Shown piece after piece: positions 41,485 through 58,000 of a stretch of 64,000 nucleotides of DNA; position 1 is the first letter of the stretch; the number at the start of each line of letters is the position of its first letter. The position numbers and the translations under genes are program-made. Origin of the DNA: Bradyrhizobium ontarionense (lineage in GTDB: Bacteria > Pseudomonadota > Alphaproteobacteria > Rhizobiales > Xanthobacteraceae); NCBI RefSeq assembly GCF_021088345.1, contig NZ_CP088156.1:5704001-5768000 (forward strand), written 5' to 3'. The notes under the pieces are model-generated. The model had not been told where the DNA came from and did no database searches. It worked only from the letters and a program-made list of their open reading frames with translations.

Positions 41485-41574
41485 TGCGTCCCCGGTTCCT
41501 TGAGCGGCTTGGTCAGGCGTTGGTAGCGCCCCCCAGGCCATGTCCTAGGACCCTAAGACCGAAAGAACCTATAC

Positions 41575-41871
41575 ATGACGATCAACATCAGCAACTACAC
41601 CTTCGACGGGCCTTATGCGTCGCCCGGACAGCTGGCCGACCGGTCCGGCGTTTATGCCGTGCTCGGAGCCAGCCCTGGCAGCACCAAGGTGGTCGATATC
41701 GGCGAATCCGGCTGGATTCGGACCCGGCTCCAGGGGCACGATCGCGCCACGGCGTGGGCGCGCCAGGGCCTGCCGCTCTCCTATGCGGCGCTGTATTGCG
41801 ATGAGTCGACTCGCATGCGGATCGAGCGCGAGCTGCGGGCTCGGTTCAATCCGCCCTGCGGCGATCGCTAA
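41575..41871 (+). CDS. Small GIY-YIG-like protein
   Basis: 98 aa. GVYAVL at residues 26-31, KVVDIGESGWIRTRL at 38-52, HDR at 55-57 and the C-terminal RIERELRARFNPP follow the order of a GIY-YIG fold (Y, then G-ES, R, H, E..N). The second motif is degenerate (DIG for YIG). It may be a nuclease or a nuclease-derived DNA-binding protein. It lies between the half-S gene and hsdM, about 90 bases from each, suggesting a role in the restriction block. Confidence 0.65.
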   Translation: MTINISNYTFDGPYASPGQLADRSGVYAVLGASPGSTKVVDIGESGWIRTRLQGHDRATAWARQGLPLSYAALYCDESTRMRIERELRARFNPPCGDR

Positions 41872-41966
41872 GAAAGCCGCGACGAGCAGGGGAGGGGTGG
41901 GCGCAACGTCCGCCCCTCGCTATCCGACTCGTAGTACTGTGACCCGAGCAAGTTGAGAGAAGGCGT

Positions 41967-43517
41967 ATGACGGACCAGAATGTTCAAGCAGGGAAGACGT
42001 CAATGGACGACATCAAGCGTGTCGCCTGGGCAGCCTGCAATACGTTTCGCGGGTTGATCGATCCAGCCGAATACAAAGACTACATCCTGATCATGTTGTT
42101 CCTGAAGTTCATCTCGGACGTCTGGAAGCAGCATCTCGAAGACAATCTTCGCGACCTCAAGGGGGACGAAGTCCGCGTGCAGCGGCGCATGCAGCGCGAG
42201 CGCTTCGTCATGCCCGAGGGCTCAACCTTTGATGAGCTCCACGCCGCGCGTGACAGTGACAACATCGGCGAGCGCGTCGACATCGCGTTGGAGGCAATCG
42301 AGAGCACGAACAAGGCCAAGCTCGGCGGCGTGTTCCGCAACGTGAGTTTCAATTCGGCGACCAAGCTCGGCGAAACCAAGGACCGCAATCGCCGCATCAA
42401 GAACCTCCTCGATGATTTTGCCAAGCTCGACCTTCGGCCTGGCCACGTCGTCGAGGACGAGGCCATCGGCGAAGCCTATATCTATCTGATCGAACGCTTC
42501 GCCTCTGAAGCGGGCAAGAAAGCGGGCGAATTCTATACGCCCCTGCAGGTGAGCCGCGTTCTCGCAAAGCTGGTCGCACCGAAGTCGGGCGAGCGTATCT
42601 GCGATCCGGCCTGCGGTTCAGGATCGCTTCTGATCGAGACGGCCTATGAAGTCGGCAGCAAGGACTTCGCCCTGTTCGGGCAAGAGGTCAATGGCGGTAC
42701 GCATGCACTCGCCAAGCTCAACATGTTCCTCCATGATATCGACGGCGCGCGAATCGAGTGGGGCGACACTCTTAACAATCCGCAGCTGATTGAGGACGAC
42801 AAGCTCGCAGTCTTCGATATCGTCGTCGCGAATCCGCCTTTCTCGCTGAAGAAGTGGGGTGGCAACGAAAAGACGGAGGATGGCAAGCCTAAGCCCGATC
42901 GGTTCAATCGATGGCATCGCGGGCTTCCGCCACCCTCTACGGGCGATTGGGCCTTCATCACGCATATGGTGGAGACGGCCAAGCCGAAGCTCGGCCGCGT
43001 CGCGGTCGTGGTGCCGCACGGCGTGCTGTTCCGAGGTGGAGCCGAGGGCAAGATCCGCGAGGCTATGATCCGCGAGAATCTTCTCGATGCCGTTATTGGG
43101 CTGCCGTCGAACCTGTTCCAATCGACGTCGATCCCGGTGGCCGTGCTCGTCTTCGACCGGCGGCGAGAAAAGAGCGGAGCGCGTGCCGAGACAACGGATG
43201 TACTGTTCATCGACGCCAGCCGTGACTTCAAACAGGCCAAGACACAGAACATTCTGGAATCGGCGCATACCGCCAAGATCATTGAAACGTATAACACGCG
43301 CAAGGATGTCGAGAGGTATGCGCGTGACGTTCCGGCGAGGGAGATCGCAGAGAACGGATTTAACCTCAACATTCCCCGCTACGTCGATACATTCGAGGCT
43401 GAAACGGAAGTCGACGTAAGGGCCGTTCAGGTTGAGATTGAGCAACTCGAAGCAGAGCTATTAAAAGTTAGAGAGCGCATGGTCGGCTATCTAAAGGAGC
43501 TCGGCGTGGATGCATAA
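41967..43517 (+). CDS. hsdM: Type I restriction-modification methyltransferase subunit
   Basis: 516 aa N6-adenine methyltransferase. The HsdM N-terminal helical domain is followed by GEFYTP (187-192), SAM motif I DPACGSGS (213-220) and catalytic NPPF (289-292). GAGAAGG precedes the ATG. With HsdS it methylates the recognition site and with HsdR it restricts unmethylated DNA. It overlaps hsdS by 8 bases. Confidence 0.97.
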   Translation: MTDQNVQAGKTSMDDIKRVAWAACNTFRGLIDPAEYKDYILIMLFLKFISDVWKQHLEDNLRDLKGDEVRVQRRMQRERFVMPEGSTFDELHAARDSDNIGERVDIALEAIESTNKAKLGGVFRNVSFNSATKLGETKDRNRRIKNLLDDFAKLDLRPGHVVEDEAIGEAYIYLIERFASEAGKKAGEFYTPLQVSRVLAKLVAPKSGERICDPACGSGSLLIETAYEVGSKDFALFGQEVNGGTHALAKLNMFLHDIDGARIEWGDTLNNPQLIEDDKLAVFDIVVANPPFSLKKWGGNEKTEDGKPKPDRFNRWHRGLPPPSTGDWAFITHMVETAKPKLGRVAVVVPHGVLFRGGAEGKIREAMIRENLLDAVIGLPSNLFQSTSIPVAVLVFDRRREKSGARAETTDVLFIDASRDFKQAKTQNILESAHTAKIIETYNTRKDVERYARDVPAREIAENGFNLNIPRYVDTFEAETEVDVRAVQVEIEQLEAELLKVRERMVGYLKELGVDA

Positions 43518-44733
43518 GGAATGGGTCGAAGCCAAACTGGCAGATATTTGCGCACCACATGGCCTTCAGACGGGGCCGTTCGGCAGTCAATTGAAGGCAG
43601 AGGAATACGTCGATGATGTTGACGGCGTCCCGGTTGCGATGCCGAAGGATCTCATTGATGGTCGTATCAATTCGGCAACAATTGCGCGGGTCAGTCGCAA
43701 AAAAGCTCGAGAGATGGCGCGTCATGAGCTTCGCAAGGGCGATTTAGTTTTTGCGCGAAGGGGCGAGTTGGGGCGTATTGCCATCGTCACACAAGCTGAG
43801 GACGGCTGGATTTGTGGTACCGGTTGCTTGCGTGCAAGGCTGTTGTCCGCGGTCGATCCTGAGTTTGTCGCTCTTTTTTTCACGACAGCTAGTTCGGTCC
43901 AGTGGTTGAACGATAATGCTGTTGGCCAGACGATGTTGAACCTCAACACTGAGATCCTCGCCGCGCTACCAATAAAATTTCCGCCGATTGGAGAACAGCG
44001 AGGCGTTGCGAGAATTCTGCGTACCTGGGACTGCGCTATCGAAACCGCCGAGCGGCTGATAAATGCGAAGGCCGCGGTGTTCGAGCACTGGTCGCACGCG
44101 CTCCTGACTGGTCGGCGGCAGCTTGGGCGAAAACGTATCAACTGGCAGTCTGTCCCCTTGACGGACGCTACGCTCGAAGTTTCGGCTCGTAATGAGGATC
44201 GCCAACTCGCGGCAAATTCCGTTATGGCTGTCAACAAGGTGCATGGCATGATTCCGATGAAGGATCATGTCCGCGCCGCGGACCTTTCGCGGTACAAAGT
44301 CGTTCACCCAAAGGCGTTTGCTTACAATCCGATGCGCCTCAACATAGGTTCGATCGCTCAAAATAATCATGGGCGCGACGTGCTCGTGAGTCCAGACTAT
44401 GTTGCTTTCGAGGCGCGCGCGGATCTGTTGATGCCGGCGTATTTCGACCACGTCAGGCGCGCGCCCATGTGGAGCCGCTTCGTAAAGACAGCTGGAAGTG
44501 GGGGAGTCCGTATTCGTATCTACTACGAGGATCTATCCGGCTTCATATTGGAGTTGCCCTCTCTCGAAGAGCAAGCCCGTATAGTTGAAGTTCTTGATAC
44601 AGCACGCCGAGAGATGGCGATCCTTGAACGACAGCGCGATGCCCTCGTTCTACAGAAGCGCGGGCTTATGCAGAAGCTGCTGACGGGCGAGTGGTCGGTG
44701 AGCATTTCGGGGTCGTGCGAGGCCGCCGAATGA
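43510..44733 (+). CDS. hsdS: Type I restriction-modification specificity subunit
   Basis: 407 aa with the standard two-half design. Target-recognition domain 1 ends in the conserved helix starting LPPIGEQRGVARILRTWDCA; domain 2 ends with LPSLEEQARIVEVLDTARRE and QKRGLMQKLLTGEWSV. The two recognition domains are AT-richer than hsdM and hsdR, typical of fast exchange of specificity. AAGGAG precedes the ATG at 43510. It overlaps hsdR by 4 bases (ATGA). Confidence 0.94.
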   Translation: MHKEWVEAKLADICAPHGLQTGPFGSQLKAEEYVDDVDGVPVAMPKDLIDGRINSATIARVSRKKAREMARHELRKGDLVFARRGELGRIAIVTQAEDGWICGTGCLRARLLSAVDPEFVALFFTTASSVQWLNDNAVGQTMLNLNTEILAALPIKFPPIGEQRGVARILRTWDCAIETAERLINAKAAVFEHWSHALLTGRRQLGRKRINWQSVPLTDATLEVSARNEDRQLAANSVMAVNKVHGMIPMKDHVRAADLSRYKVVHPKAFAYNPMRLNIGSIAQNNHGRDVLVSPDYVAFEARADLLMPAYFDHVRRAPMWSRFVKTAGSGGVRIRIYYEDLSGFILELPSLEEQARIVEVLDTARREMAILERQRDALVLQKRGLMQKLLTGEWSVSISGSCEAAE

Positions 44734-47700
44734 GTGGCTTTCGCGATGGCGAGATTCACAACTCCCAGCTGTCGGCTCTTCATTTGCTTCAGACCCTGCA
44801 GCCGACCTGGACGGTGTTGACCAAAGCGGAAGTCAACCTTGAGCGACGGGGGCGGCTCGGGAACGTTCTGCTTGAGGACATACTTGCAGCTCAGCTCAGC
44901 AAGCTCAATCGGATCGAGCAGGACGGCTGCTTCCATCCCTTTTCTGAGGCGAATGTCCGCACTGCGATCGAGCGACTGCGCGCACCCGAGCCGCTTGGCC
45001 TGATGACGCTGAACGAGAAGACGACCGACCTTCTGCAGCTTGGTACGTCGCTCGATCAGACCATCGACGGCGTTACCCGGGGGCGGTCGCTCCGTTACAT
45101 CGATTGGGAAACGCTAGAAAACAACGCGTTCCATGCTGTCGCCGAGTTTGAGGTTGAGAAGGCCGGAAGCCATGAGACCCGCCGTCCCGACATCGTACTA
45201 TTCGTCAACGGCATCCCGCTTGCGGTGATCGAATGCAAGGCGCCGCATGTCGAGCTCGGCGAGGGTATCGGTCAGATCGTTACTTACCAGCGGGGAGACG
45301 AGATCCCGCACCTGTTCCGTAGCGTGCAGCTGGTGCTTGCCGTGAAACCAGCTGAGGCAAGATACGCGACTGTGGGCACGGCCGCGAAATTCTGGGCGGT
45401 CTGGAAAGAAAAGGAGTTCGACAACGCAGCGCTAGCGCAGCTTGTGAACGCCCCGCTCGACGTGGCCCAGACGCGCCGCACATTTGGCGACGGATTCGCC
45501 GAGGAACAGGTGCCATTTGAGGCGCGCCGGGGCGAGGGGCGCATCGTCACGGAGCAGGATCGCTTGATCCATGCGCTCTGCCGGCCGGATCGGCTCCTGG
45601 ACCTCGTCCGTCGCTTTACGTTGTTCGATCTCGGCGTCAAGAAGGTCGCGCGGTATCAGCAGTTCTTCGCTGTCCGCAAAATCATGGATCGGGTGAAAGG
45701 CGAGCGCGACGAGCAGGGCGCGCGGCGGGGCGGCGTCGTCTGGCATACCCAGGGTTCCGGCAAGTCGCTCACCATGGTCATGCTGGCCAAGGCCCTAGGG
45801 CTCGACCGCGCGATCACGAACCGCCGCGTCGTTCTCGTTACCGACCGCATTGATCTCGACGATCAGCTTCGGGACACCTTCAAGGCGTGCGGTACGGATG
45901 TGGTCCAGGCCAAGACCGGATCGCATCTGCTTGATCTCATTGTACGTGACAAGGCGGCGATCGTCTCGACGGTCATCAACAAGTTCGAGGCCGCGATCGC
46001 CAAGCGCGACTTCAAGGACGAATCTACGGACGTCTTCCTGCTAGTCGACGAAAGTCATCGTGGTCAGTACGGCGAGATGCACACACGCATGAAGCGCGTG
46101 TTTCCGCGTGCTTGCTATATTGGCTTCACCGGCACGCCGTTGATGAGGGCCGAGAAGAGCACCGCGGCACGCTTCGGCGGGATCATCGATGCCTACACCA
46201 TCGACCAGGCGGTCGACGACAAGGCCGTTCTGCCACTGATCTATGAGGGTCGGCAGGTCGCGCAGGAGGTCAATCGGGCCGGGATCGATAGCTGGTTTGA
46301 ACGGGTGACGCGCGAGTTGCCAGAACAGCAGCGCTTCGACCTCAAGCGGCGGCTTGCCCGCTATAGCGAGATCGCCCAGGGCGACCAGACCATCACGGCC
46401 ATCGCCTATGATATCGCCGAGCATTTCACGAAATTCTGGAAAGGAACGCGCTGGAAAGCGCAGTTCGCTGTCCGATCCCGCGCCGCCGCCGTCAAATACT
46501 ACGAGATCTTCAAGGAGATGGGGACGATCTCGGCGGAGGTCATCATGTCCGCGCCGGATGATCGGTCGACGGGGGATGACCCGGCTGAGGAGGTCACCGA
46601 GCCGGTTGTCCGGTTCTGGAAGACCATGATGGCGAGATATGGGGGCGAGGAGTCGTACAACCGCCAGATCGTCGAGGGATTCAAGAAGCGGGAGGAGCCA
46701 GAGCTTCTGATCGTGGTCTCCAAGCTACTGACCGGCTTCGACGCGCCCGTGGATACCGTGCTATATATCGACAAGCCGCTGACCGGGCACAATCTGCTCC
46801 AGGCCATCGCCCGGGTGAACCGCGTCGAGGAGGACAAGGAGTACGGCTACATCGTCGACTATGCCGGAGTTCTCGGCGATCTCGATACAGCGATGCGGGT
46901 CTATTCGGCGCTTGCCGAGTTCGAGCCCAACGACCTGGATGTCGGACATGCGATCATCGACGTGCAGGATCAGATCGCCAGATTGCCTCAGGCGCACGCG
47001 AACTTGGTCAATCATTTCAAGGGCGTCGCCAAGGTGCGCGACGAAGAGGCCTATGAGGTCTTCCTCGCCGACGAGGTCGTTCGCAAGGAGTTCTACGAGC
47101 TGCTCGCCGAATTCGCGCGGCTGCTGGCTACAGCGCTGGCAACGGCGAACTGGGCCAACCATCCCAAGAGCGAGGCTCAGGTGCGGATCTACCGGGACGA
47201 CCTGCGTCGCTATCAAAAGTTGCGTACAGCCGTCCGCAATCGTTACCGTGAAGCGATCGACTTCAAGCAGTATGAGGCGCGCATCCGCAAGCTGCTCGAT
47301 ACGCACATCAGCGCCGACGCGGTCGAGGTTGTGACTGAGGCAGTGAACATCTTTGACACGGCCGCGTTCGACCGCGCCGTGGCCGAGCAGACCACGCCCG
47401 CCTCAAAGGCGGACCTGATCGCGAGCCAGACCAAGCGCACGATCACCGAGCGCATGGAGGAGGACCCCGTCTTCTTCAAGAAGATCTCCGATCTGATCGC
47501 CGATGCGATCGCCGAGCATCGTGCCAAGCGCCTGAGCGACAACGATTACCTCGCCAGGATCCGTGAGGCTGCGGAGCAAGTTCGCCGGCCCAAGCACGAC
47601 GACGTTCCGGCTGAAGTCAGGGCCGACGAGCACGCCGTCGCCATTTTCAATTCGCTCAACAATGCAATGGGGGGCATCGGCGGACCGCAGGGAGGGAACA

Positions 47701-47927
47701 TCCGGCCTGTGCTAGCTGCCGCTGCGTTGGAGCTGGTATCGATCGTCAAGAGCCTGAAGGTCGTGAACTGGACGGAGAACGTGGATGTCCAAAACGCGAT
47801 GCGAAACCGGATCGACGACTATTTCTTCGACGTAATCCGTGACCAGCACGGTATCGATCTGGCGCCGGAGCAGATTGATATGATTGTCGACAGCGTGCTC
47901 AAGGTCGCTCGCGCACGGATGGCCTGA
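44730..47927 (+). CDS. hsdR: Type I restriction endonuclease subunit
   Basis: 1065 aa. The N-terminal nuclease has RRPDIVLF (Asp154) and VIECK (Glu168, Lys170) of the PD-(D/E)xK fold. The translocase has Walker A HTQGSGKS (339-346), DESH (440-443), and helicase motifs FTGTPL and LTGFDAP. A C-terminal helical domain binds the HsdM/S core. The start at 44730 is set by the ATGA overlap with hsdS. The full reading frame implies an active enzyme. Confidence 0.97.
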   Translation: MSGFRDGEIHNSQLSALHLLQTLQPTWTVLTKAEVNLERRGRLGNVLLEDILAAQLSKLNRIEQDGCFHPFSEANVRTAIERLRAPEPLGLMTLNEKTTDLLQLGTSLDQTIDGVTRGRSLRYIDWETLENNAFHAVAEFEVEKAGSHETRRPDIVLFVNGIPLAVIECKAPHVELGEGIGQIVTYQRGDEIPHLFRSVQLVLAVKPAEARYATVGTAAKFWAVWKEKEFDNAALAQLVNAPLDVAQTRRTFGDGFAEEQVPFEARRGEGRIVTEQDRLIHALCRPDRLLDLVRRFTLFDLGVKKVARYQQFFAVRKIMDRVKGERDEQGARRGGVVWHTQGSGKSLTMVMLAKALGLDRAITNRRVVLVTDRIDLDDQLRDTFKACGTDVVQAKTGSHLLDLIVRDKAAIVSTVINKFEAAIAKRDFKDESTDVFLLVDESHRGQYGEMHTRMKRVFPRACYIGFTGTPLMRAEKSTAARFGGIIDAYTIDQAVDDKAVLPLIYEGRQVAQEVNRAGIDSWFERVTRELPEQQRFDLKRRLARYSEIAQGDQTITAIAYDIAEHFTKFWKGTRWKAQFAVRSRAAAVKYYEIFKEMGTISAEVIMSAPDDRSTGDDPAEEVTEPVVRFWKTMMARYGGEESYNRQIVEGFKKREEPELLIVVSKLLTGFDAPVDTVLYIDKPLTGHNLLQAIARVNRVEEDKEYGYIVDYAGVLGDLDTAMRVYSALAEFEPNDLDVGHAIIDVQDQIARLPQAHANLVNHFKGVAKVRDEEAYEVFLADEVVRKEFYELLAEFARLLATALATANWANHPKSEAQVRIYRDDLRRYQKLRTAVRNRYREAIDFKQYEARIRKLLDTHISADAVEVVTEAVNIFDTAAFDRAVAEQTTPASKADLIASQTKRTITERMEEDPVFFKKISDLIADAIAEHRAKRLSDNDYLARIREAAEQVRRPKHDDVPAEVRADEHAVAIFNSLNNAMGGIGGPQGGNIRPVLAAAALELVSIVKSLKVVNWTENVDVQNAMRNRIDDYFFDVIRDQHGIDLAPEQIDMIVDSVLKVARARMA

Positions 47928-47930
47928 GCG

Positions 47931-48635
47931 ATGCGTGGATCGATCGCCTATGCCGGCCAAAGGATCGAATATCGCGCCCGGCGCACGGCGCGGAAAACGC
48001 TTGCGATTTCTGTCCATCCGGACGGTAGCGTCGAAGTCGTTGCCCCCTCAGGCACGACCCCTGTGGTCATCGAGCAGCGCCTGCTAAGCCGTGCGGGGTG
48101 GGTCCTGAGGCAGCGACGCTACTTCGAGCAGTTTCTGCCGCGGACGCCCGAACGGCGACATGTCGGCGGGGAGACTCACCTTTATCTCGGCAGGCAATAT
48201 CGCCTGAAGGTCGAGCATGGAGAGGAGGAGCGAGTCCGCCTGACATCCGGGCACTTCCGGATTACCGTGAAGCGTCAGCCGGTACCCGACCGCGTCCGGG
48301 AGCTTCTGGATGATTGGTACCGGGGGCACGCCGAGCGCAAGATCCGCGAGCGCTTCGACGTGGTCGCCAAGCGCTTCTCCAGCATCCTGCCGGTGACGCC
48401 GAGCTTGGCGATCCGGCCGATGCGTCGTCGCTGGGGCAGCTATAGCCGCAAGGGCCGTATCACCCTGAATCGCGACCTCATCCGTGCCCCGCTGCCCTGC
48501 ATCGACTATGTCATCATCCACGAGCTGGCCCATAGCCGGCATCCCAACCACGGCCGGGCCTTCTTCGACCTTCTGACCCAGATGATGCCCGATTGGGAAC
48601 GCCGGAAGCTGGCGCTGGAGCGCATGTTGGCTTGA
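47931..48635 (+). CDS. YgjP-like zinc metallopeptidase (DUF45)
   Basis: 234 aa. The zinc site is HELAH (197-201) with a third ligand in HPNHGRAF; the WGSYSRKGRITLN segment before it is a YgjP/SprT-like hallmark. It starts 3 bases after hsdR, so it is part of the same operon. Linkage of this peptidase to type I systems is common in bacteria, but its job is not established; turnover of HsdR or of stalled complexes is a guess. Confidence 0.88.
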   Translation: MRGSIAYAGQRIEYRARRTARKTLAISVHPDGSVEVVAPSGTTPVVIEQRLLSRAGWVLRQRRYFEQFLPRTPERRHVGGETHLYLGRQYRLKVEHGEEERVRLTSGHFRITVKRQPVPDRVRELLDDWYRGHAERKIRERFDVVAKRFSSILPVTPSLAIRPMRRRWGSYSRKGRITLNRDLIRAPLPCIDYVIIHELAHSRHPNHGRAFFDLLTQMMPDWERRKLALERMLA

Positions 48636-48647
48636 GGGGGGCGTTTA

Positions 48648-48658
48648 GGGGGGGGGGG
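48648..48658. repeat. Run of 11 G
   Basis: An uninterrupted G tract just after the metallopeptidase stop and 90 bases before the left inverted site of the next cassette. Such tracts can slip in replication and also cause sequencing errors. It is not in a coding region, so any effect would be on spacing of a promoter or leader. Confidence 0.85.
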
Positions 48659-48748
48659 CGTACTTGCCTAGGTCAGGCAGCCCAAAATTGGTGGTTGAGG
48701 GATTGTATTTTGCTCTCCAGGCGATAGCATGGTTGGCATTTCAATGAA

Positions 48749-48768
48749 ACATAACTCCGAATTATGCG
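48749..48768 (-). repeat. Left inverted 20-bp site, dif-like
   Basis: ACATAACTCCGAATTATGCG on the plus strand. Read on the minus strand with flanks, its arms are CGTGCGCATAA and TTATGTTTCAT around a 7-base centre TTCGGAG. E. coli dif has arms GGTGCGCATAA and TTATGTTAAAT around 6 bases, so the arms agree at 19 of 22 positions. A perfect inverted copy is at 50473. The ATG of the methyltransferase gene is inside the site. It is also a near-palindrome, so an operator is an alternative reading. Confidence 0.75.
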
Positions 48769-49507
48769 CACGCAGCAATCATACTTGGAACGAATTCGCA
48801 GCAAGTACAACAAAATTGGAGAGATTTGGGAGCAGGCCGATCGCTGGCACATGTGGAGTAAGCTCCAGATCGAGCACGAGATGCAATTCGTCGCGAGCCA
48901 AATCGTCCACCTCGATCAGGACCGCGATTTGATCCTCGACGTCGGTTCGGGAGGATACTCATACTTCAACAGCGAGACCCCCGTTGTCGAGATCGATATC
49001 GCTGAGCAACGATTACGCGGATCACAATTAGCAGTATGCGCGAGTGCAGAAAGCCTGCCGCTATCGCCAAGCATAGCAAGCCTGACAATTTGCGTGGGGC
49101 CTGTCGTAAATTACTGCTCTTTGGAAGAGGTGATCAGCGAATTATCGTCAGTCACGAAGGAAGGCGGACTTTTAGTTCTTCATGTAGAGCTGAGCAACAG
49201 TTTCGAGTTCTTTGGATCTAGTTCTTATCGCGCCGACGTCGCCTTTGTTACCACATTTTATAGGGGTGAAGAGCAGTATTGGGTTTACTCAAACAAGTTC
49301 GTACGACGCATGCTCTCTGCATATGGATTCGAGATTGAGAGGGTTAGGTACTTCCACATCATCTCAAGTCTCATTTATCGTCTATCTCGCCGGCCGAATT
49401 TTTCATGCTTTTTCTCAACCGCCGATTCGCTTTTCCAGCGCCTGAATTTGGGGGCAGAGATTGCGGATAGTGCAATCTTTGTTTGCCGCCGCGCAACAAT
49501 TGAGTAG
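48764..49507 (+). CDS. Class I SAM-dependent methyltransferase
   Basis: 247 aa. SAM motif I is LILDVGSGGYSYF (residues 56-68), then VVEIDIAEQRL, a CASAESLPLS acidic-loop segment and ISELSSVTKEGGLLVLHVEL, a normal Rossmann methyltransferase of the small-molecule or protein type. No NPPY/DPPY motif is seen, so DNA adenine methylation is unlikely. A stop codon 9 bases before the ATG fixes the start; no good ribosome site is seen. Its last 137 bases overlap the opposing gene. AT-richer than the chromosome. Substrate unknown. Confidence 0.8.
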   Translation: MRTQQSYLERIRSKYNKIGEIWEQADRWHMWSKLQIEHEMQFVASQIVHLDQDRDLILDVGSGGYSYFNSETPVVEIDIAEQRLRGSQLAVCASAESLPLSPSIASLTICVGPVVNYCSLEEVISELSSVTKEGGLLVLHVELSNSFEFFGSSSYRADVAFVTTFYRGEEQYWVYSNKFVRRMLSAYGFEIERVRYFHIISSLIYRLSRRPNFSCFFSTADSLFQRLNLGAEIADSAIFVCRRATIE

Positions 49508-50477
49508 TCGCTTCAAAAACCTCAAACGCCTTTCCACTGCTGATTGAAACAATTCCTCCAAATACCGCAAGCAATGTCATCAACAGCAGCGCGGCTGAAT
49601 TTGGCGGAATTTGGAGCTCGTATATGGCAGTTCCTGAGATCGCGACAACAGCAGCGAACATTACTATGTGCAGCCCGGCGCGGAATTCCGCGGAAGGAGC
49701 CTGCGCGCTGATTGGGTTTGCAATTAACGTATCCGATTCGGGTCCATTCACTTTTATTGTTGGCTGATTACCGACTCGAGCTTCAAACTCGCTGTATAGC
49801 CCCTCTAGGTAATCCTTATACGCCGACGTGCGACTACCGAAGAAATCTCTGTACCATGGCAGATAGTGCTCAAACAGAATGCCGCGGGTGATTTGAAGCA
49901 GATCCTCTTTTCGGATTCGGTACAGCTTTTGACTTCCGCGGATCATCAAGATCCCAGGATACCTCGCTTCATAATTTACAGGCTCAATGTTCGGAAGAGA
50001 ATAATCCGCATGGACCTTGCCAAAACCAACCTGTCCGAGCAGGCGAACCAGCTCATTTCCACCCGTCTGTTCCGACCCATACTCATTACCGTCTTCCAGC
50101 TCGACCGCTGTGAAATCGATCTCCACGTTTAAAGCCTGGATAGTATCGTGCAATAGCTGGGAAAATATAAAGAACGCTGCAGCGCCGCGGGAGTCGGCGT
50201 CGATCACCATGTGATCAATGACCAGTAGCTTGGAGTGAGGGTAGTAGCCGAACATCGCGAATCCTATAATCGCCTTTGAGCGACATAGGGCTGCGAAATA
50301 GAAGGTACCCTCAGGGGTCTCCGGGTTATCAATCTTCTTTCGGATTTGGTTTGTCTTCGTGCGGAGCAGTGCCGATGTGTTCTTAACGAAGATCGCAAGC
50401 GCTCTATCCACGTCCGCGCGGTCAGAAGGGCTCGAGCCTAGGAGTTTCAGCTCAAATGAGGCATTGGTTCTACGCAT
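49371..50477 (-). CDS. GNAT-like protein with C-terminal membrane hairpin
   Basis: 368 aa. The N-terminal 170 residues resemble an acetyltransferase fold (TFYFAALCRSKAIIGFAMFG, then LLVIDHMVIDADSRGAAAFF). A middle soluble part follows, then two membrane helices (HIVMFAAVVAISGTAIYELQ and AALLLMTLLAVFGGIVSI) and a basic tail. The acetyl-CoA loop is not canonical, so catalysis is uncertain. The ATG lies inside the right inverted site. No close family is recognised. It converges on and overlaps the methyltransferase. Confidence 0.72.
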   Translation of the reverse strand: MRRTNASFELKLLGSSPSDRADVDRALAIFVKNTSALLRTKTNQIRKKIDNPETPEGTFYFAALCRSKAIIGFAMFGYYPHSKLLVIDHMVIDADSRGAAAFFIFSQLLHDTIQALNVEIDFTAVELEDGNEYGSEQTGGNELVRLLGQVGFGKVHADYSLPNIEPVNYEARYPGILMIRGSQKLYRIRKEDLLQITRGILFEHYLPWYRDFFGSRTSAYKDYLEGLYSEFEARVGNQPTIKVNGPESDTLIANPISAQAPSAEFRAGLHIVMFAAVVAISGTAIYELQIPPNSAALLLMTLLAVFGGIVSISSGKAFEVFEATTQLLRGGKQRLHYPQSLPPNSGAGKANRRLRKSMKNSAGEIDDK

Positions 50478-50492
50478 AATTCGGAGTTATGT
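50473..50492 (+). repeat. Right inverted 20-bp site, dif-like
   Basis: CGCATAATTCGGAGTTATGT on the plus strand, the exact reverse complement of 48749-48768. The identity ends abruptly on both sides, which fits a recombination core and not a chance duplication of a longer promoter. Orientation is opposite to the left site, so recombination between them would invert 1.7 kb. It lies 126 bases before the tyrosine recombinase start. Confidence 0.75.
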
Positions 50493-50618
50493 GCTGTTAA
50501 AATAGCGCGTAAGTGCGAAGATCGCGGTTCATCAATTAACCAACTCGGTCGGTACAACTCTACGGCGATGACGCAATCCTCCGCCAGAACGTAGACTGCG
50601 AAAGTCCGGAGGAGCGAT

Positions 50619-51521
50619 ATGCGCGTCAGCGTTGCGGTTGATGAATTCTTGAGATACTGCGCCGTCGAGAGGCAGCTTTCTCCGCATACGATCGATGCCT
50701 ATACGGCCGATCTCAAGGAGTTTGCTCGGTTTCTGCGAGAAGATCCGCTCGTTTCGTCTATTAATGAAAATACCCTGGCGGGATATCTTGTCGATCTGCT
50801 CGAGAGCAGGAAACTGTCTATTGGTACGGTCCGGCGCCGATTTGCATGTCTGCGGGCGTTTGCACGGCGACTGGCGAAAGTCGATGGCTTTACCGACCCG
50901 TTTGCCAAGTGGCAGCTACAGCTTCCCAAGCGTAAAAGACTTCCACGATCGCTATCGCGCCCAGAAGTTTCGCGGCTGCTCGCAAGCTTTCCTTCGCAGA
51001 AGTCAGGAGCTTCAAAGGCCTCCCACGCCTTTATTGCGGCGCGATTGATGATTGCGACGGGAATTCGGGTTGGGGAGCTATGCCGGATTTCGATGCAGGA
51101 CGTTGTAGCCGACGGCGAAGCCATTCGCATATTCGGGAAGGGGGCCCGGGAGCGGATGGTTTACATTTCTGATTCGTCGCTTCGAGCCGATCTCCTCAAG
51201 ATTTTAGTATGGCATCGTGAAAACGGTCGCGTTGCAGGAAATCTATTCATTAATCGCCGGGGCGCGGCCCTCAGACCCCAATCGATGCGGATCGTGTTGC
51301 GTCGTCAATACGAGCAAAAGAATGGTCGCCGTATTACGCCGCATATGCTGAGGCACACTGCGGCAACTCTTTTGATGGAGCGTGGAGTCGACATACGGTT
51401 TGTTCAGCGCCTATTGGGTCATTCGAGTATTGCTACCACTGAGATCTACACTCATGTCTCGGACGAGGCGCTGAGGTCCACTCTGGAGAGAGCAGACGTC
51501 CTGGGACAGCTGGCTGCTTGA
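50619..51521 (+). CDS. Tyrosine recombinase, XerC/XerD size
   Basis: 300 aa. The N-terminal core-binding domain (VDEFLRYCAVERQLSPHTID) and C-terminal catalytic domain carry Arg150 (ATGIRVGELCRI), His242 and Arg245 (HMLRHTAATLL), His268 (LLGHSSIATTEIYTH) and Tyr277, the full set. Length and lack of an extra arm-binding domain match Xer-type enzymes, not phage integrases. AGGAG precedes the ATG. It is AT-richer than the core genome and is adjacent to the inverted dif-like sites, its natural candidate substrates. Confidence 0.93.
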   Translation: MRVSVAVDEFLRYCAVERQLSPHTIDAYTADLKEFARFLREDPLVSSINENTLAGYLVDLLESRKLSIGTVRRRFACLRAFARRLAKVDGFTDPFAKWQLQLPKRKRLPRSLSRPEVSRLLASFPSQKSGASKASHAFIAARLMIATGIRVGELCRISMQDVVADGEAIRIFGKGARERMVYISDSSLRADLLKILVWHRENGRVAGNLFINRRGAALRPQSMRIVLRRQYEQKNGRRITPHMLRHTAATLLMERGVDIRFVQRLLGHSSIATTEIYTHVSDEALRSTLERADVLGQLAA

Positions 51522-51626
51522 GTTCGTGGCCACGGAGGCGGTGGAACGACGCTGGTGTCCGCTCGCGGTAACCAACGATGTTTTGGGCGTGCCAGCTAGA
51601 GGAAGAGTGCAGGCCGGGTTGGCCGT

Positions 51627-51673
51627 GACGGGTTGGAAGCGGCGAGAGAGTTCCGCCGCGCCCGTCGCGGAGA
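51627..51673 (+). promoter_or_regulatory. Hairpin leader upstream of ardC
   Basis: An outer stem GACGGG/CCCGTC encloses an inner stem (GCGGC/GCCGC) with GAGAGAG in the loop, then GCGGAG as the ribosome site 7 bases before the ATG. The same layout stands before parB at 52687-52733 with different inner stem bases. The Shine-Dalgarno follows the hairpin directly, so folding could control translation. Confidence 0.55.
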
Positions 51674-51679
51674 TCCGCG

Positions 51680-52636
51680 ATGCACGGACGGAGAGTTGGA
51701 GCGCGTGCCGGTGAGGGCCGGGCGAGCCTCTATGAGGAGATCACGAATACGATCATCGGCGAGCTGGAGGCTGGCCACGTGCCCTGGGTGCAACCATGGG
51801 GGACGCAAGCGGCGAAGGCTCAGCTGGCGTTGCCCAGGAATGCTGCGACTCGTCGGCCGTATTCGGGGATCAACGTGCTGATCCTCTGGGGAGCGGTGAT
51901 CGAGCGCGGCTTTGCCGGCCAGAGCTGGCTCACGTTCCGGCAGGCGCTGTCTCTCGGCGGCCATGTCCGCAAAGGCGAGCGCGGAGTTACGGTCGTCTAT
52001 GCCGACCGCTTCGTCCCATTGGATGCGCAGCAGCGTGCGCGCGAGACCGGCGACGAGGCGCAGGCGATTCCGTTTCTGAAGCGGTTTACGGTCTTTAACT
52101 CCGAGCAATGCGACGGTCTGCCGGAGGACATCGTGACAGCGGCGCCCCTACCGCCGGCCGGAGCGATCGAGCCTGTGGTGGAGTCGCTGATCGCGAACAG
52201 CGGCGTCGACTTCCGGATTGGCGGTGACCGGGCGTTCTATGCTCCAGTTGAAGATTTCGTGCAGGTGCCGCCGCCCTCGGCGTTCTTCGAGCCGATCAAC
52301 TGGCACCGCACGGCCTTGCATGAGCTCGCGCATGCCAGCGGACATGCGTCGCGGCTCGATCGTGATCTGTCTGGGCGGTTCGGCAGCCGCAAATACGCCT
52401 TCGAGGAGCTGATAGCCGAGATCGCGTCCGCCTTCAGCTGCGCCGCGCTCGGTATCGTGCCGACCGTGCGCCATGCCGACTATATCGGCTGCTGGCTCGA
52501 CGTCCTGCGCGAGGACAATCGCGCCATCGTCCGGGCGGCGAGCCAGGCGAGCCGTGTGGCCGATTATCTCCTCGGTTTTGCACCCGGAGCAGCTGGGGTC
52601 GTTGAGGCGAGCGGAACGGACTGCGCCGCGGCCTGA
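51680..52636 (+). CDS. ArdC-like antirestriction protein
   Basis: 318 aa. The N-terminal ssDNA-binding domain (DUF1738: SLYEEITNTIIGELEAGHVP, then YSGINVLILWGAVIERGF) is followed by a zincin-like metallopeptidase domain with HELAHASGH near residue 214 and the conserved YAFEELIAEIASA. ArdC proteins protect incoming conjugative DNA from restriction. The ATG at 51680 fits the ribosome site; the first 15 residues are not conserved. It sits next to a resident restriction block and before parB. Confidence 0.9.
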   Translation: MHGRRVGARAGEGRASLYEEITNTIIGELEAGHVPWVQPWGTQAAKAQLALPRNAATRRPYSGINVLILWGAVIERGFAGQSWLTFRQALSLGGHVRKGERGVTVVYADRFVPLDAQQRARETGDEAQAIPFLKRFTVFNSEQCDGLPEDIVTAAPLPPAGAIEPVVESLIANSGVDFRIGGDRAFYAPVEDFVQVPPPSAFFEPINWHRTALHELAHASGHASRLDRDLSGRFGSRKYAFEELIAEIASAFSCAALGIVPTVRHADYIGCWLDVLREDNRAIVRAASQASRVADYLLGFAPGAAGVVEASGTDCAAA

Positions 52637-52686
52637 GTATCGTGCTCTGCTAGCAGAGGAGAGGAAGAGGGCGAGAGGTGCTCTGC

Positions 52687-52733
52687 GACGGGTGAAGGCC
52701 TGAGAGAGAGGCTCCGGGCTACCCGTCGTGGAG
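52687..52733 (+). promoter_or_regulatory. Hairpin leader upstream of parB
   Basis: GACGGGT (52687-52693) pairs with ACCCGTC (52721-52727). The inner stem GCCT/AGGC has a GAGAGAG loop. GTGGAG follows at once and is the ribosome site for the ATG at 52743. Same design as the ardC leader, with inner stem sequences changed while pairing is kept. Confidence 0.55.
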
Positions 52734-52742
52734 AACCAAGAC

Positions 52743-54869
52743 ATGACCAAAGCCGCCCAGAAGATCACGCTGTCGCCCTCGCGCGACATTCCCTTCAACA
52801 AACTGGTCCTGAGCCAGTCCAACGTACGCCGCATCAAGGGCGGCATTTCCATCGAGCAGTTGGCGGAGAGCATTGCTGAGCGGACGCTGTTGCAAAGCCT
52901 GAACGTTCGAGCGGTTCTCGATGGAGAGGGTAAGGAGACCGGGATGTTCGAGGTGCCGGCGGGCGGCCGCCGCTACCGTGCCCTTGAACTCCTCGTCAAG
53001 CAGAAGCGGATGGCGAAGACACAAGCTGTACCTTGCGTAGTGCGGGACCAGGGCTCCGCTCTGGACGACTCGCTTGCCGAAAATGACCAGCGTGTCGGCC
53101 TGCATCCCCTCGACCAGTTCCGCGCATTCCAGGCGCTGCGCGAGGGCGGCATGAGCGAGGAGGAGATCGCGGCGCGGCATTTCGTGGCGGTTGCGGTCGT
53201 CAAGCAGCGGCTGCGGCTGGCTGCGGTCTCGCCGGCGCTGCTCGATGTCTACGCCGCCGACGGCATGACGCTCGAGCAGCTGATGGCGTTCACAGTGACG
53301 GCGGATCATGTCCGCCAGCAGGAGGTCTGGGACAAGGTCAGCCGCTCCGGCTGCGACGAGCCTTACCAGATCCGCCGCCAGCTCACCGAGCAGACTGTGC
53401 GGGCGTCCGATCGCAGGGCTCAGTTCGTCGGGCTCGCATCCTACGAGGCGGCCGGCGGGGTGGTGCTGCGCGATCTGTTCGAAGCCGATGACGGAGGCTG
53501 GCTGCAGGATGTCGCGCTGCTCGACCGGCTCGTGGCGGAGAAGCTGCAGGCCGAAGCCGAGCGAGTTGGCGCCGAGGGCTGGAAGTGGATCTCGGCAGCC
53601 GTCGACTTCCCGTTCGGACATACCCATGGTTTGCGCGAACTTGACGGAGAGCCGGCCGCGTTCGCCGCGGACGAGCTGGCCGCGATCGAGGCGCTCAAGA
53701 CCGAACAGGCCAAGATCGAGGCGGACTATGGCCAGGCCGACGAGCTGCCCGACGACGTCGATCAGCGTCTCGGCGAGATCGAGGCGGCGCTGCAGTCGTT
53801 CGACGATCGGCCGATGATCTACGATTCCGCCGAGATGGCGCGGGCCGGCGCGTTCGTCAGCGTCGAATCAGACGGCCGGCTCCGCGTCGCGCGGAGCTTC
53901 GTCCGCCCCGAGGATGAGGTCGTGGCGACCAGCGATCAGCCGGGTGCCGAAGCCGAGGCCGACAGCGACAACCAGCTCGCCGTTCCCGATGCGAAGGCCC
54001 GCACCAGTTCGCCGACGATCGTGATCGGCAACACCGAGACCGAGGCGACGGATGAGGACGGGGAGGATATCGAGCGTCCGTTGCCGGATCGCCTGATCAC
54101 CGAGCTGTCGGCGTATCGCACGCTCGCCCTGCGCGATGCGCTCGGCCGAGAGCCGTCCATCGCATTCCAGGCCGTGCTGCACAGTTTCGTGCTGGCGACG
54201 TTCTATCCGTTCGGGTCAGCGCTCAATTGCCTGGAGATCTCGCTGCGCACCCCGAGCTTCCCGGCGCAGCCGCCTGGCCTGCAGGACAGCATTCCCGCCA
54301 AGGCGATCGCCGCCCGTCACGCGGCCTGGAAGGCGAAGCTGCCGGCCAGCGACAGGGAGCTCTGGGCGGCGCTGACCGCGATGGACGGGGCGGCCCAGGC
54401 CGAGCTCTTCGCCCACTGCGCCGCGCAGGCGGTGAACGCGATCTTTGAGCCGGCCAACCGGGTGCATCAAGGTCGCCTGTCGGTACATGGTGTCCGCGGC
54501 CGCCTCGAACAGGCGGACCGGCTGTCGCGCGCGGTCGGGCTCGACATGATCAGCGCCGGCTGGAAGCCGACCGTGGACAATTATCTCGGTCGCGTCACCA
54601 AGCACCGCATCCTGCAGGCGGTGCGCGAGGCCAAGGGCGAGGCCTCGGTGCAGCTGATCGATCACATGAAGAAGCCGGACATGGCGCGTGAGGCCAAGCG
54701 GCTGCTCGAAGGCAGCCGCTGGCTGCCGGAGCCGCTGCGTGGAACGGAGACCGAGGTGACCGCCGAGTCTGAAGGCGGCGATGCCGAAAGCCTGCCGGCG
54801 TTCCTCAGCGAGGATAAGGAGGCGACGGAAGGCGCTGACGAAGTCGAGGAGATCGTCGCCGCGGAATGA
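52743..54869 (+). CDS. Large ParB/RepB/Spo0J family protein
   Basis: 708 aa, much longer than chromosomal ParB (about 300). The N-terminal ParB/sulfiredoxin-like domain has LVLSQSNVRRIKGG, the CTP-site-like AGGRRYRAL and DDSLAENDQRVGLHPLDQFR; a helix-turn-helix follows (MSEEEIAARHFVAVAVVKQR). The acidic middle and C-terminal helical region are typical of the alphaproteobacterial plasmid and ICE form. No ParA is adjacent, so its role may be gene control or DNA processing, not segregation. The ATG at 52743 is preferred to a GTG at 52728 because GGAG lies 9 bases upstream. Confidence 0.9.
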   Translation: MTKAAQKITLSPSRDIPFNKLVLSQSNVRRIKGGISIEQLAESIAERTLLQSLNVRAVLDGEGKETGMFEVPAGGRRYRALELLVKQKRMAKTQAVPCVVRDQGSALDDSLAENDQRVGLHPLDQFRAFQALREGGMSEEEIAARHFVAVAVVKQRLRLAAVSPALLDVYAADGMTLEQLMAFTVTADHVRQQEVWDKVSRSGCDEPYQIRRQLTEQTVRASDRRAQFVGLASYEAAGGVVLRDLFEADDGGWLQDVALLDRLVAEKLQAEAERVGAEGWKWISAAVDFPFGHTHGLRELDGEPAAFAADELAAIEALKTEQAKIEADYGQADELPDDVDQRLGEIEAALQSFDDRPMIYDSAEMARAGAFVSVESDGRLRVARSFVRPEDEVVATSDQPGAEAEADSDNQLAVPDAKARTSSPTIVIGNTETEATDEDGEDIERPLPDRLITELSAYRTLALRDALGREPSIAFQAVLHSFVLATFYPFGSALNCLEISLRTPSFPAQPPGLQDSIPAKAIAARHAAWKAKLPASDRELWAALTAMDGAAQAELFAHCAAQAVNAIFEPANRVHQGRLSVHGVRGRLEQADRLSRAVGLDMISAGWKPTVDNYLGRVTKHRILQAVREAKGEASVQLIDHMKKPDMAREAKRLLEGSRWLPEPLRGTETEVTAESEGGDAESLPAFLSEDKEATEGADEVEEIVAAE

Positions 54870-54918
54870 GGCGCATTCCGTACGGCTGATCTCCACTCTG
54901 GAAGACATCGATGATTGA

Positions 54919-54944
54919 AGCCCGGCCAGATCGGCCGGGCTTTT
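54919..54944 (+). terminator. Rho-independent terminator after parB
   Basis: AGCCCGGCC (54919-54927) and GGCCGGGCT (54933-54941) form a 9-bp stem with a 5-base loop, followed by a short T-run. It ends the parB transcript and separates it from the next gene. Confidence 0.85.
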
Positions 54945-55078
54945 GTCATGCAGGTCATGATCTCTCTGACAGCGGCCGAGAGTGAGAGAGGCGAGGGAGC
55001 GCGGATGAGGTCGCCGGACAAGAGAGAGCTTCGGCGGCATTCCTCCCGCTTCACTGCTCTCCTTGAAGGTCCTCCGAG

Positions 55079-58000
55079 ATGGTCACCAACGCGAGCTGCC
55101 CTACGGCATCCTTTGCGCTCCTTGCGCGCGCCCAAGCCGTCCGCCGTGCCGCCCAGCTGCTACTGCAAAGCCTCACCCGCGGCGAGCGGATCGATGCAAG
55201 TTGCCTCCGCCTGATCATGCAGCGCGCGTTCGGCGGCAGTGATGCCGATGGCAGCTGGGACTGGAAGACGGCGTACGAGGCCTGCGAGATCGCCGCTGTC
55301 CTGTTCCTGGCCAAATATGGTCCGGCGATCATCAAGGCCAGCAATGGCTTGCCCTCCGCCATGCTGCCGATGGTCGCCAAGATCGCAGCGCTGCTGCCGA
55401 GCCACACCAGGCGCTCGCTGGAGAGCCAGAGCTTCCAGCAGTTCTCGACGCCGCTTCCGCTGGCCCTCGCCGTGGCCGCGGCTGCGCAAGTGACGTCGGC
55501 CGATCGCGTGCTCGAGCCATCCGCGGGGACGGGGAGTCTCGCCATATTCGCGGAGCTCGCGGGCGGATCGCTGCTGCTCAACGAGCTCGCTGCAAGCCGC
55601 GCCGCCATGCTCGATCTGGTGTTTCCGGGCGTGAGCGTGACGCGCTTCGATGCCGCGCAGATCGATGACCATCTCGATGCTACCTGCGTTCCAAGCGTCG
55701 TCCTGATGAACCCGCCGTTCTCGGCGACCGCCAATGTGGATCGCCCTCTGGCGGATACAACGTGGCGCCATCTGTCTTCGGCGCTGGCGCGGCTCGGAGA
55801 GGGTGGGCGGTTGGTCGCCATCACCGCCGCCGGATTTGCGCCGGACAATCCGACATGGACCGCCGCCTTCATGCACCTGCAGCAGCGCGGCCGTCTGGTG
55901 TTCTCCGCTGCGATCGATGGCGCTGTTTACGCGCGGCAAGGAACCACAACCACGACGCGGCTGCTGGTGATCGACAAGCAGCCGGCGCTGGATCCCTGTG
56001 TCTTTCCGCAGTCGGCTGGGATGGCTCCTGACGTCAGGACCTTGCTTGATTGGATCACCGTGCTCGTGCCGCCGCGGCTGCCCATGGCAGGCCGCTTCGT
56101 GGCTGAGGTCAGCCAGCGCGCTATGCTCCGGCCGAGGGAGAGCCGAGCGACGGTCCCTCGGTCCTCTCCACCCTCGTCCGCTAGCTTGGAGCCTGAAGGA
56201 AGCGAACTCATCTACGAGTTCGTCGATGACGCGCCGGAGCCGGAGCTCCGCCTGACGGATTCGCTGTACGAGGGATATCAGCTGCAGTTGATCCGGATTC
56301 CCGGCGCGAAGGCTCACCCAACGAAGCTCGTGCAATCCGCAGCCATGGCGTCCGTCGCGCCGCCCAAGCCGACCTATCGGCCGCATGTGTTGCCGCGGCT
56401 TGTCACCGACGGCGTGCTCTCGGAGGCACAGCTCGAGAGCATCATCTATGCCGGCGAAGCGCATGGTGGATTCCTCGCGGGCTCGTGGGCTGTCGACGAG
56501 ACCTTCGACCAGGTCCGTGCGACGAGTGAGGATACCGAGGGTGCGGTGCGCTTCCGGCGCGGCTGGTTCCTTGGAGATGGCACGGGCGCGGGGAAGGGCC
56601 GCCAAGTCGCCGGCATCCTGCTCGACAATTGGCTGAAGGGCCGACGCCGGGCGATCTGGGTCAGCAAGTCGGACAAGCTGATCGAGGACGCGCAGCGCGA
56701 CTGTGCGGCGCTCGGCATGGAGCGGTTGCTGGTCACGCCGCTGTCGCGCTTCCGCCAGGGCACGCCGATCCGGCTCGATCAAGCCATCCTTTTTACGACC
56801 TACGCCACGCTACGGACCGACGAGAGGGCCGAGAAGCTTTCCCGCGTACGCCAGATCGTCGACTGGGTAGGGCGGGATTTCGATGGCGTGATCATCTTCG
56901 ACGAGAGCCATGCGATGCAGAACGCCGCGGGCAACAAGGGCGATCGGGGCGAGCAGGCGGCTTCACAGCAGGGGCGCGCCGGATTGAGACTGCAGCACGC
57001 GCTGCCCAATGCCCGCATCGTCTACGTCTCGGCCACGGGCGCGACCACGGTCCATAATCTGGCTTACGCCCAGCGGCTCGGATTGTGGGGCGGCGCGGAC
57101 TTCCCGTTTGCGACGCGCGCGGATTTCGTGGCGGCGATCGAGGAGGGCGGGGTTGCGGCCATGGAGGTGATGGCCAGGGATCTCAAGGCGCTCGGCCTGT
57201 ACACCGCTCGGTCGCTGTCCTTCGAGGGCATCGAATACGAACTGCTCGAGCACCGGCTCACGGACGAGCAGGTCAGGACCTACGATACCTATGCCGAGGC
57301 GTTCGCGGTCATTCACAACAATCTCGAAGCCGCGATGCGCGCGGCCAATATCACCGGCGCAAACGGGACGCTGAACGCGCAGGCCAAGTCTGCGGCGCGC
57401 TCGGCCTTCGAATCCGCCAAGCAACGGTTCTTCGGGCATCTGTTGACTTCGATGAAGACGCCGACGCTGATCAACGCGATCAAACGCGATCTCGACGCCG
57501 GCCAGGCCGCGGTCATCCAGATCGTATCCACGGGCGAAGCTCTGATGGAGCGCCGATTGGCCGAGATTCCGACCGAGGAGTGGGGCGACGTCCAGGTCGA
57601 TATCACGCCCCGCGAATACGTTCTCGACTATCTCGCTCATTCCTTTCCGGTCCAGCTCTACGAGCCCTTCACCGACGGCGAGGGCAATCTGTCGTCGCGG
57701 CCCGTCTACCGCGATGGTCAGCCGGTCGAGAGCCGCGAGGCGGTGGCACGTCGCGACCAGATGATCGAGCATCTCGCCTCGCTTGCTCCGGTGCCAGGTG
57801 CACTCGACCAGATCGTCCAGCGCTTCGGCACCGACGTGGTCGCCGAGGTCACGGGACGATCGAGACGGATCGTCCGTATCCGTGACCGGCTCGCAGTCGA
57901 GACCAGGGCGGCCTCTGCCAACCTGGCGGAGGCTGCCGCCTTCATGGATGACCAGAAGCGCATCCTGGTGTTCTCGGATGCCGGCGGCACCGGGCGCAGC

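Follow-up and report, generated by a model that had tools for sequence, protein, structure and literature searches.

A putative invertible and exchangeable two-gene cassette beside a XerC/D-like recombinase in Bradyrhizobium ontarionense, and its relatives in Proteobacteria

Most known inversion switches either turn a promoter round or exchange alternative forms of a single protein, and the R64 shufflon swaps pilus-protein ends. In the G segment of phage Mu and the C segment of phage P1, inversion by the serine recombinases Gin and Cin determines which of two convergent gene sets is read from a single external promoter, the cargo being fixed and the sets encoding alternative tail-fibre versions. 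Integrons combine a XerC/D-like recombinase beside a fixed site with exchangeable cassettes and an outside promoter; their attC sites are direct and single-strand folded, and their cassettes form arrays.

Inversion by tyrosine recombinases is well known, and the systems closest in design to the locus described here are, as far as the accessible portions of the two sources extend, the pdif (pXerC/D) modules of Acinetobacter (PMC9947245) and the R64 shufflon (PMC11852207). Active pairs of the XerC/D-type Acinetobacter sites share identical spacers, with reversible inversion between oppositely oriented sites (PMC9947245, in excerpt); the modules are plasmid-borne, have a 6-bp spacer and depend on host XerC/XerD. 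The shufflon and its tyrosine recombinase Rci rely on a 7-bp core for their inversions, with four segments and asymmetric 12-7-12 sites (PMC11852207, in excerpt). In invertons and hsdS inversions (PsrA, Streptococcus pneumoniae), a tyrosine recombinase flips DNA between inverted repeats and generates phase variation, rearranging promoters or related specificity genes (PMC7096588, PMC4948785, both in excerpt). The accessible part of a survey of inversions (PMC5903667) does not mention a two-gene type with the start codon in the site, and a full-text literature search, outside which most subscription papers lie, returned no recognised account of a two-gene, start-codon-in-site, exchangeable cassette.

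Here we analyse a window of 64,000 nucleotides from Bradyrhizobium ontarionense (contig NZ_CP088156.1, positions 5,704,001 to 5,768,000), which very probably carries an invertible, exchangeable two-gene cassette acting as an either/or switch served by the adjacent recombinase (Table 1). The recombinase would cut at a pair of inverted sites with a private 7-bp spacer in common, and the intervening DNA would flip, swapping the transcribed gene: a methyltransferase in the present orientation and, once inverted, a GNAT-fold protein. In the course of evolution, unrelated gene pairs would also take the place of the whole cassette between the same sites. Such a design would share with pdif modules the XerC/D-type sites and inversion between inverted sites of identical spacer, while differing in its 7-bp spacer, its own recombinase beside one site and its site-supplied start codons. 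With the shufflon it would share a tyrosine recombinase, a 7-bp core and inversion; however, its sites are near-symmetric, and each pair bounds one segment encoding two unrelated proteins. A shufflon assignment was rejected, as there is one segment per site pair, with unrelated cargo, rather than several segments with asymmetric sites. Like the Mu and P1 segments, the cassette would choose between convergent genes behind one outside promoter; unlike invertons and hsdS systems, it would rearrange whole unrelated genes, with cargo exchanged between strains.

Table 1. Features of the cassette and its surroundings, in window positions
Feature	Position	Strand	Remarks
Distal outer flank, conserved, away from recombinase	48682..48748	+	89% identity across elements with differing cassettes
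Promoter-like motif TTGTAT-N16-TAGCAT, reading into the cassette	48703..48730	+	Post hoc pattern from these flanks
Left (distal) crossover site, predicted	48749..48768	-	Core 48750-48766; spacer 48755-48761 (CTCCGAA read inward)
Cargo gene A, class I SAM-dependent methyltransferase-like, 247 aa	48764..49507	+	ATG inside left site
Cargo gene B, GNAT-fold plus apparently membrane-spanning C-terminal helices, 368 aa	49371..50477	-	ATG inside right site
Right (recombinase-side) crossover site, predicted	50473..50492	+	Core 50475-50491; spacer 50480-50486 (TTCGGAG)
Dedicated XerC/D-like tyrosine recombinase, 300 aa	50619..51521	+	Pfam PF00589, E 1.5e-34
Mobile-element backbone start, ArdC-like gene first	51598..53500	+	Outer limit of element; end is the limit of the stretch compared

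An earlier note on this DNA, made from the letters alone, had described perfect 20-bp inverted repeats round an AT-richer 1.7-kb segment with two convergent genes, each having its ATG inside a repeat, and every part of this description holds. By sequence reading, the repeats bound exactly 1,744 bp (48749-50492); a repeat search extends them to 31 nt at 84%, the perfect arm being 20 bp. GC content is 0.498 in the cassette and rises to 0.604 and 0.641 in the adjoining 5-kb stretches on its two sides. Read from outside inward, the core at both ends is CATAA-CTCCGAA-TTATG, with the arms and 7-base centre of the left site as the note wrote them beside the E. coli dif form, which we take as given for the comparison.

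The two genes overlap at their 3' ends by 137 bp. Predicted structures indicate a methyltransferase fold for the product of gene A. That of gene B combines a GNAT fold with C-terminal helices, whose membrane-spanning character was judged by eye. The AlphaFold model of gene A (mean pLDDT 90.2) finds its best PDB match in 2avn, a methyltransferase-related protein (E 2.8e-11), and the Pfam match to Methyltransf_11 (E 0.0013, 19.7 bits) falls under the 21.2-bit cut-off. A Pfam scan gave no match for gene B; the N-terminal part of its model (mean pLDDT 76.7) resembles GNAT acetyltransferases, the best being 3ey5 (E 7.8e-8).

As the note had it, a XerC/D-sized tyrosine recombinase begins 126 bp past the right repeat, with matches in Pfam to Phage_integrase and an N-terminal SAM-like domain. 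Residues R150, K174, H242, R245, H268 and Y277, presumably the complete catalytic set that the note had recognised, are invariant in an 11-member alignment. The protein scores 202.6 of 335.15 bits (XerC) and 191.6 of 329.6 bits (XerD), under both NCBIfam equivalog cut-offs; the host XerC/XerD-like copies are themselves below these cut-offs, at 292 and 325.1 bits, so that the cut-off is indecisive.

A search of the 8.4-Mb genome for the core, with up to 2 mismatches, found the window sites and one further pair, and no others. At a distance of 1.7 Mb, this second pair (spacer CTCGGAA) neighbours a recombinase that shares 71% identity with that of the window, and because the sole other pair genome-wide adjoins such a protein, the association is beyond chance. 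The cargo of the second element is unlike the window's, and its distal flank is 89% identical over 85 bp, site included; the element of genome G176, again with a differing cassette, matches the same flank at 89% over 83 bp. The spacers of the window element and the second element differ at both ends, as expected if recombination requires a spacer match. The note had proposed a search for the 20-bp site beside other cargo; this second pair and the loci described below have sites of related form with different gene pairs.

The stretch 51598-60444 is a mobile-element backbone with the cassette at its edge; 187 of 257 genomes of the genus have matches to its first part. Of 29 loci compared, 28 begin their main match to the window at 51595-51598. 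In the remaining one (L177, genome G256) it begins at 51340, and homology to the backbone thus extends into the recombinase gene, as though part of an element had stayed behind. None of the 29 loci joins the backbone to the window's left flank, within 1.5 kb at most on either side and among best matches only. On the other side, 40879-48635 holds a type I restriction-modification operon (HsdM, HsdS and HsdR-like, by eye) followed by a YgjP-like metallopeptidase gene (Pfam) and bordering directly on the cassette. A further HsdS-like fragment lies upstream (Methylase_S just below cut-off), and just after the YgjP-like gene comes a run of 11 G (48648-48658) that may be a slippage tract. No known RNA element reaches the gathering score in 47500-52500.

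The note's invertible two-gene cassette with a recombinase is supported, although not as a one-off: by sequence comparison, the segment belongs to a family of cassettes with inverted sites beside a separate XerC/D-like recombinase, carrying many different cargoes. Matches to the recombinase at E 1e-60 or better occur in 19 of 265 Bradyrhizobium genomes (10 of 146 in a first genus sample), at 1e-50 in 10 of 397 genomes of an order sample and, with a Massilia query, at 1e-45 in 4 of 398 of a phylum sample, the genus, order and phylum counts each including the window's own genome. A scan of genome contigs for two common recombinase motifs, which is not a census, gave at least 80 loci, 15 of 80 being examined, and yielded full site pairs beside the recombinase in Reyranella, Rhodopseudomonas, Massilia and Alteromonas. 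Pairs were also found on examining contigs of Ralstonia, Burkholderia and Gallionellaceae. A Magnetospirillum and a Candidatus Binatia MAG (L035, L046) gave single sites. The machinery is spread over Alpha-, Beta- and Gammaproteobacteria.

We counted 43 recombinase loci (L028, a second copy of L027, is omitted; L032 and L142 are one contig), 25 of which hold 27 complete cassettes, and the site pairs are inverted in all 27 and direct in none. With the core pattern NATAA-N7-TTATN, 54 of the 70 sites within 7 kb of a recombinase have an inverted mate of identical 7-bp spacer, and the arm pattern occurs 0 times in 94,555 bp of background. Seven of the 16 unmated sites lack the spacer ends common to all mated sites and look like chance; six of the other nine lie some 130 bp or less from a contig end and that of L046 about 1.1 kb, while those of L147 and L151 are not near ends. 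Perfect arms measure 16-29 bp, and 40 bp in L147. The family-wide scan fixed the spacer at 7 bp; a scan of 16 loci allowing 6-8 bp found mated pairs at 7 only. Spacers are identical within a pair and different between neighbouring cassettes, as at L145 and L146, where two complete cassettes, each with its own spacer, flank one recombinase.

A complete pair is missing from 18 of the 43 loci; at 11 of them, the site side has less than 200 bp of contig left, and at L046 it has about 1.1 kb. No pair was found at L029, L030, L032 (the L142 contig) and L141, where sequence is present on at least one side, nor at four more distant relatives (L079, L094, L098, L106). L151 has a lone site, and L147 a lone site besides its pair; these sites, that of L147 downstream of the recombinase and both beside an open recombinase frame, may be half-lost cassettes. 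At L171 (898-4960 of G999:C112), matched inverted sites with spacer CTGGTAA bound a GT2/PIG-L protein opposite a 912-aa protein; no recombinase was noticed in the 7.0 kb read of this 7.3-kb contig, and the cassette may be served in trans.

Flipped copies occur among these relatives. The single contig of the Bradyrhizobium genome G015 has 21.5-kb overlapping ends, base 1 corresponding to 7,820,447 and the last base to 21,500, which align with zero mismatches, small indels only and a clean inversion of the 1,748-bp cassette; the two copies are 100% identical to each other and about 70% identical to the window's. We read this as one locus assembled twice from a culture with both orientations; a true duplication at the contig ends is less likely, and one copy would still have flipped. 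The ends of G015:C1 (L027, L028, L155, L156) are an untrimmed overlap, and genes there are present twice. At L010 and L135, one locus in two species, the cassette (97%) lies in opposite orientations, with upstream identity of 99.5% over 4.8 kb and 98.6% over 370 bp, and of 90.8% over 1.1 kb on the recombinase side, where the alignment stops just past the recombinase gene.

Draft assemblies also break at the sites. The cassette forms its own contig in Ralstonia A12 (3,525 bp) and in Burkholderia WAC0059 (3,508 bp), and both flank contigs stop at the site; contigs of G034, G184 and G999 end within about 8 bp of a site and those of G255 and G507 within about 80 bp, making 7 of 20 genomes checked. 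Of the remaining 13, nine hold an intact pair within a contig, one (G426) a single site and three none; elsewhere in G999 there is likewise one intact pair. In the protein collection, the longest contig measures 1,740-1,763 bp for 7 of 44 methyltransferase relatives and 6 of 37 GNAT-type relatives, hand-counted in a 1,735-1,765 bin from two lists that probably share contigs; the next 30-bp bin up holds 1 and 0, and the bin below none. A protein 100% identical to the window methyltransferase lies on a contig of 1,744 bp, the repeat-bounded length; that contig is known by length only, a circular form would also fit, and arms exceeding the word size of an assembler would break contigs even without inversion. 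The window's own genome record holds no flipped copy of its element. Inverted recombinase sites around a segment that occurs in both orientations, the hallmark of DNA-inversion (phase-variation) systems, are thus present in the relatives and, for the window, indicated only indirectly. The flipped copies and the broken assemblies support the inversion that the note had inferred.

Exchange is apparent where unrelated cassettes sit between the same flanks. Between L024 and L025, int plus flank are 95% identical, 4.1 kb downstream 94.5% and the distal 245 bp 92%, and the cassettes are unalignable; for L146 and L147, identity is 97% across the stretch between the one site and the other, recombinase included, and outside it their cassettes are unalignable. 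The window recombinase is itself 88% identical to one carrying another cassette. Conversely, the alignment of the window with L027 covers the cassette (70%) and, beyond it, only 193 bp inside the recombinase, which argues for movement as a unit. Exchange of the cassette as a unit, which the note had offered as an alternative, is in keeping with these comparisons, its mechanism being predicted. Cargo exchanged between fixed flanks, as at L024/L025 and L146/L147, recalls integrons, as do the adjacent XerC/D-like recombinase and the predicted outside promoter; here, however, the sites are inverted, with one cassette per pair. Integron membership was rejected, there being no direct pairs and the recombinase scoring 112.4 of 265 bits against the integron integrase model TIGR02249, below its cut-off.

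Cargo, typed by Pfam scans and homology, is diverse, and gene-pair types recur across distant hosts. A SAM methyltransferase with a GNAT-type partner is found in the window, L023 and L137 by scan (the GNAT matches of L023 and L137 and the window methyltransferase match being below cut-off) and in L025-L027 by homology; a 2OG-Fe oxygenase with GNAT plus a 326-aa protein in L010 by scan and in L134 and L135 by homology; and a D-Ala ligase-like ATP-grasp protein with a STAND-like AAA_16 protein in L031, L138, L144, L136 (split in two) and the Ralstonia and Burkholderia contigs, several AAA_16 matches being below cut-off and L040 being a weaker case. An aminotransferase-like and a pentapeptide-repeat protein are paired in L148 (above cut-off), L145 (below), L024 (NCBIfam, below) and L147 (by size and position). 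Either gene may lie on the recombinase side in three of these four recurrent types, while the pentapeptide type has the same order in 4/4. Other cargo includes glycosyltransferases (L143, L153, L171), serine hydroxymethyltransferase, spermidine synthase, PAP2, CDP-alcohol phosphotransferase and cyclopropane-synthase-like proteins and, in L152, an aminotransferase plus a sulfotransferase opposite a SIR2-NACHT protein; several partners gave no match in the Pfam scans. Domains of this kind suggest a defence role for cargo; PADLOC, run on 10 cargo proteins, returned matches for the SIR2-NACHT protein of L152 only.

The sites often supply the start codon: the inner arm provides an ATG at 35 of 54 cassette ends, the site ATG opens an ORF of 150 aa or more at 30 ends and not at the other 24, and in 12 of 27 cassettes both ends do so, the two ORFs filling 99-107% of the cassette. 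The outside promoter that the note had placed on the side away from the recombinase has a predicted counterpart in a conserved promoter-like motif, TTG[CT][ACT]T-N16-TA[GT]NAT, a post hoc pattern drawn from the very flanks on which it was scored: it occurs in 11 of 28 distal flanks (L027 and L028 being one locus), in 0 of 28 proximal flanks and never outward on either side. Within Bradyrhizobium, 10 of the 11 loci of the window's layout have it starting 47-68 bp outside the distal site, directed inward; it is absent from L026, of that layout, and from L138, of the same genus and another layout. Beyond Bradyrhizobium loci of the window's layout, no shared flank motif was found. A generic sigma-70 score hardly separates the flanks: read inward, it averages 8.16 on the distal and 7.49 on the proximal side, and read outward, 7.95 and 7.56, respectively. 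Because the window genes start at site ATGs and the promoter-like motif lies outside the left site only, a flip would swap the transcribed gene, and we infer that the recombinase at 50619-51521 does the inverting, that the window copy is active and that expression alternates.

The selected function might instead be integron-like cassette exchange, inversion being a by-product and both genes being expressed from promoters on both sides, a reading that we regard as rather unlikely. Unrelated cassettes between conserved flanks speak for it, as does a recombinase tree that, by eye, is not sorted by cargo. So does the second layout, in which the recombinase coding match mostly ends 2-25 bp before the site (65-80 bp in L138, L153 and L046), close enough that the near gene may be co-transcribed with the recombinase. 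Nonetheless, the promoter motif is on the distal side only in those 10 of 11 loci, and exchange alone does not require gene-pair types to recur in distant hosts.

It is very improbable that flips and swaps arise by RecA-dependent homologous recombination at short repeats or shared flanks, with the recombinase a relic or otherwise employed. In close pairs, the same boundary would also result from homologous recombination between shared flanks, and the L024/L025 replacement could have arisen in this way. However, the perfect arms of 16-29 bp (40 bp in L147) are short for RecA, spacers match within pairs and differ between neighbours, recombinase and site pair co-occur in two layouts, and the window and L027 align over the cassette alone apart from the 193-bp stretch, all of which speak against it.

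Still less probable is a dif/pdif-type module moved by host XerC/XerD, which the dif-like arms, the adjacent XerC/D-like protein and the inversion of DNA by such Acinetobacter sites (PMC9947245, in excerpt) would favour. The spacer is 7 bp in 27 of 27 pairs (the family scan required 7; the 6-8 bp scan of 16 loci found 7 only), the genome encodes separate XerD-like and XerC-like proteins outside the window element, and all 27 pairs have a dedicated recombinase alongside, although it was the recombinase that served to find the loci. Searched genome-wide with up to 3 mismatches, the E. coli dif form gave one poor match, at neither element. We therefore rejected dif/pdif membership, given a 7-bp spacer instead of an 11-6-11, 28-bp site and a recombinase of its own, and on the same two counts, spacer length and a recombinase distinct from the genome's XerC- and XerD-like proteins, the note's dif-module-like label falls. 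That the repeats are non-recombining operators for a repressor of both cargo genes is scarcely credible, even with near-palindromic sites overlapping both gene starts, and an operator-only role was rejected, because the flipped copies and assembly breaks at sites already contradict it for relatives.

The family might tentatively be viewed as a separate gene-exchange platform, in which inverted, spacer-addressed sites flip and exchange two-gene modules, and in which, as the site often gives the start codon, a captured module becomes an either/or pair at once. For a population, it may be a means of bet-hedging, alternating between a state of defence and one in which surfaces or metabolites are modified, since cargo pairs often oppose an enzyme and an immune-like protein (STAND/NACHT ATPase, SIR2, pentapeptide repeat); we hold this broader view with considerable reserve. 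One compact design appears both to choose between two unrelated proteins and to exchange its cargo, and it looks widespread and little described. Matched private spacers would allow a single recombinase to have two cassettes at its side, a natural parallel to the orthogonal sites of synthetic biology. With many cargo proteins uncharacterised or immune-looking, the family may offer a searchable tag for such genes.
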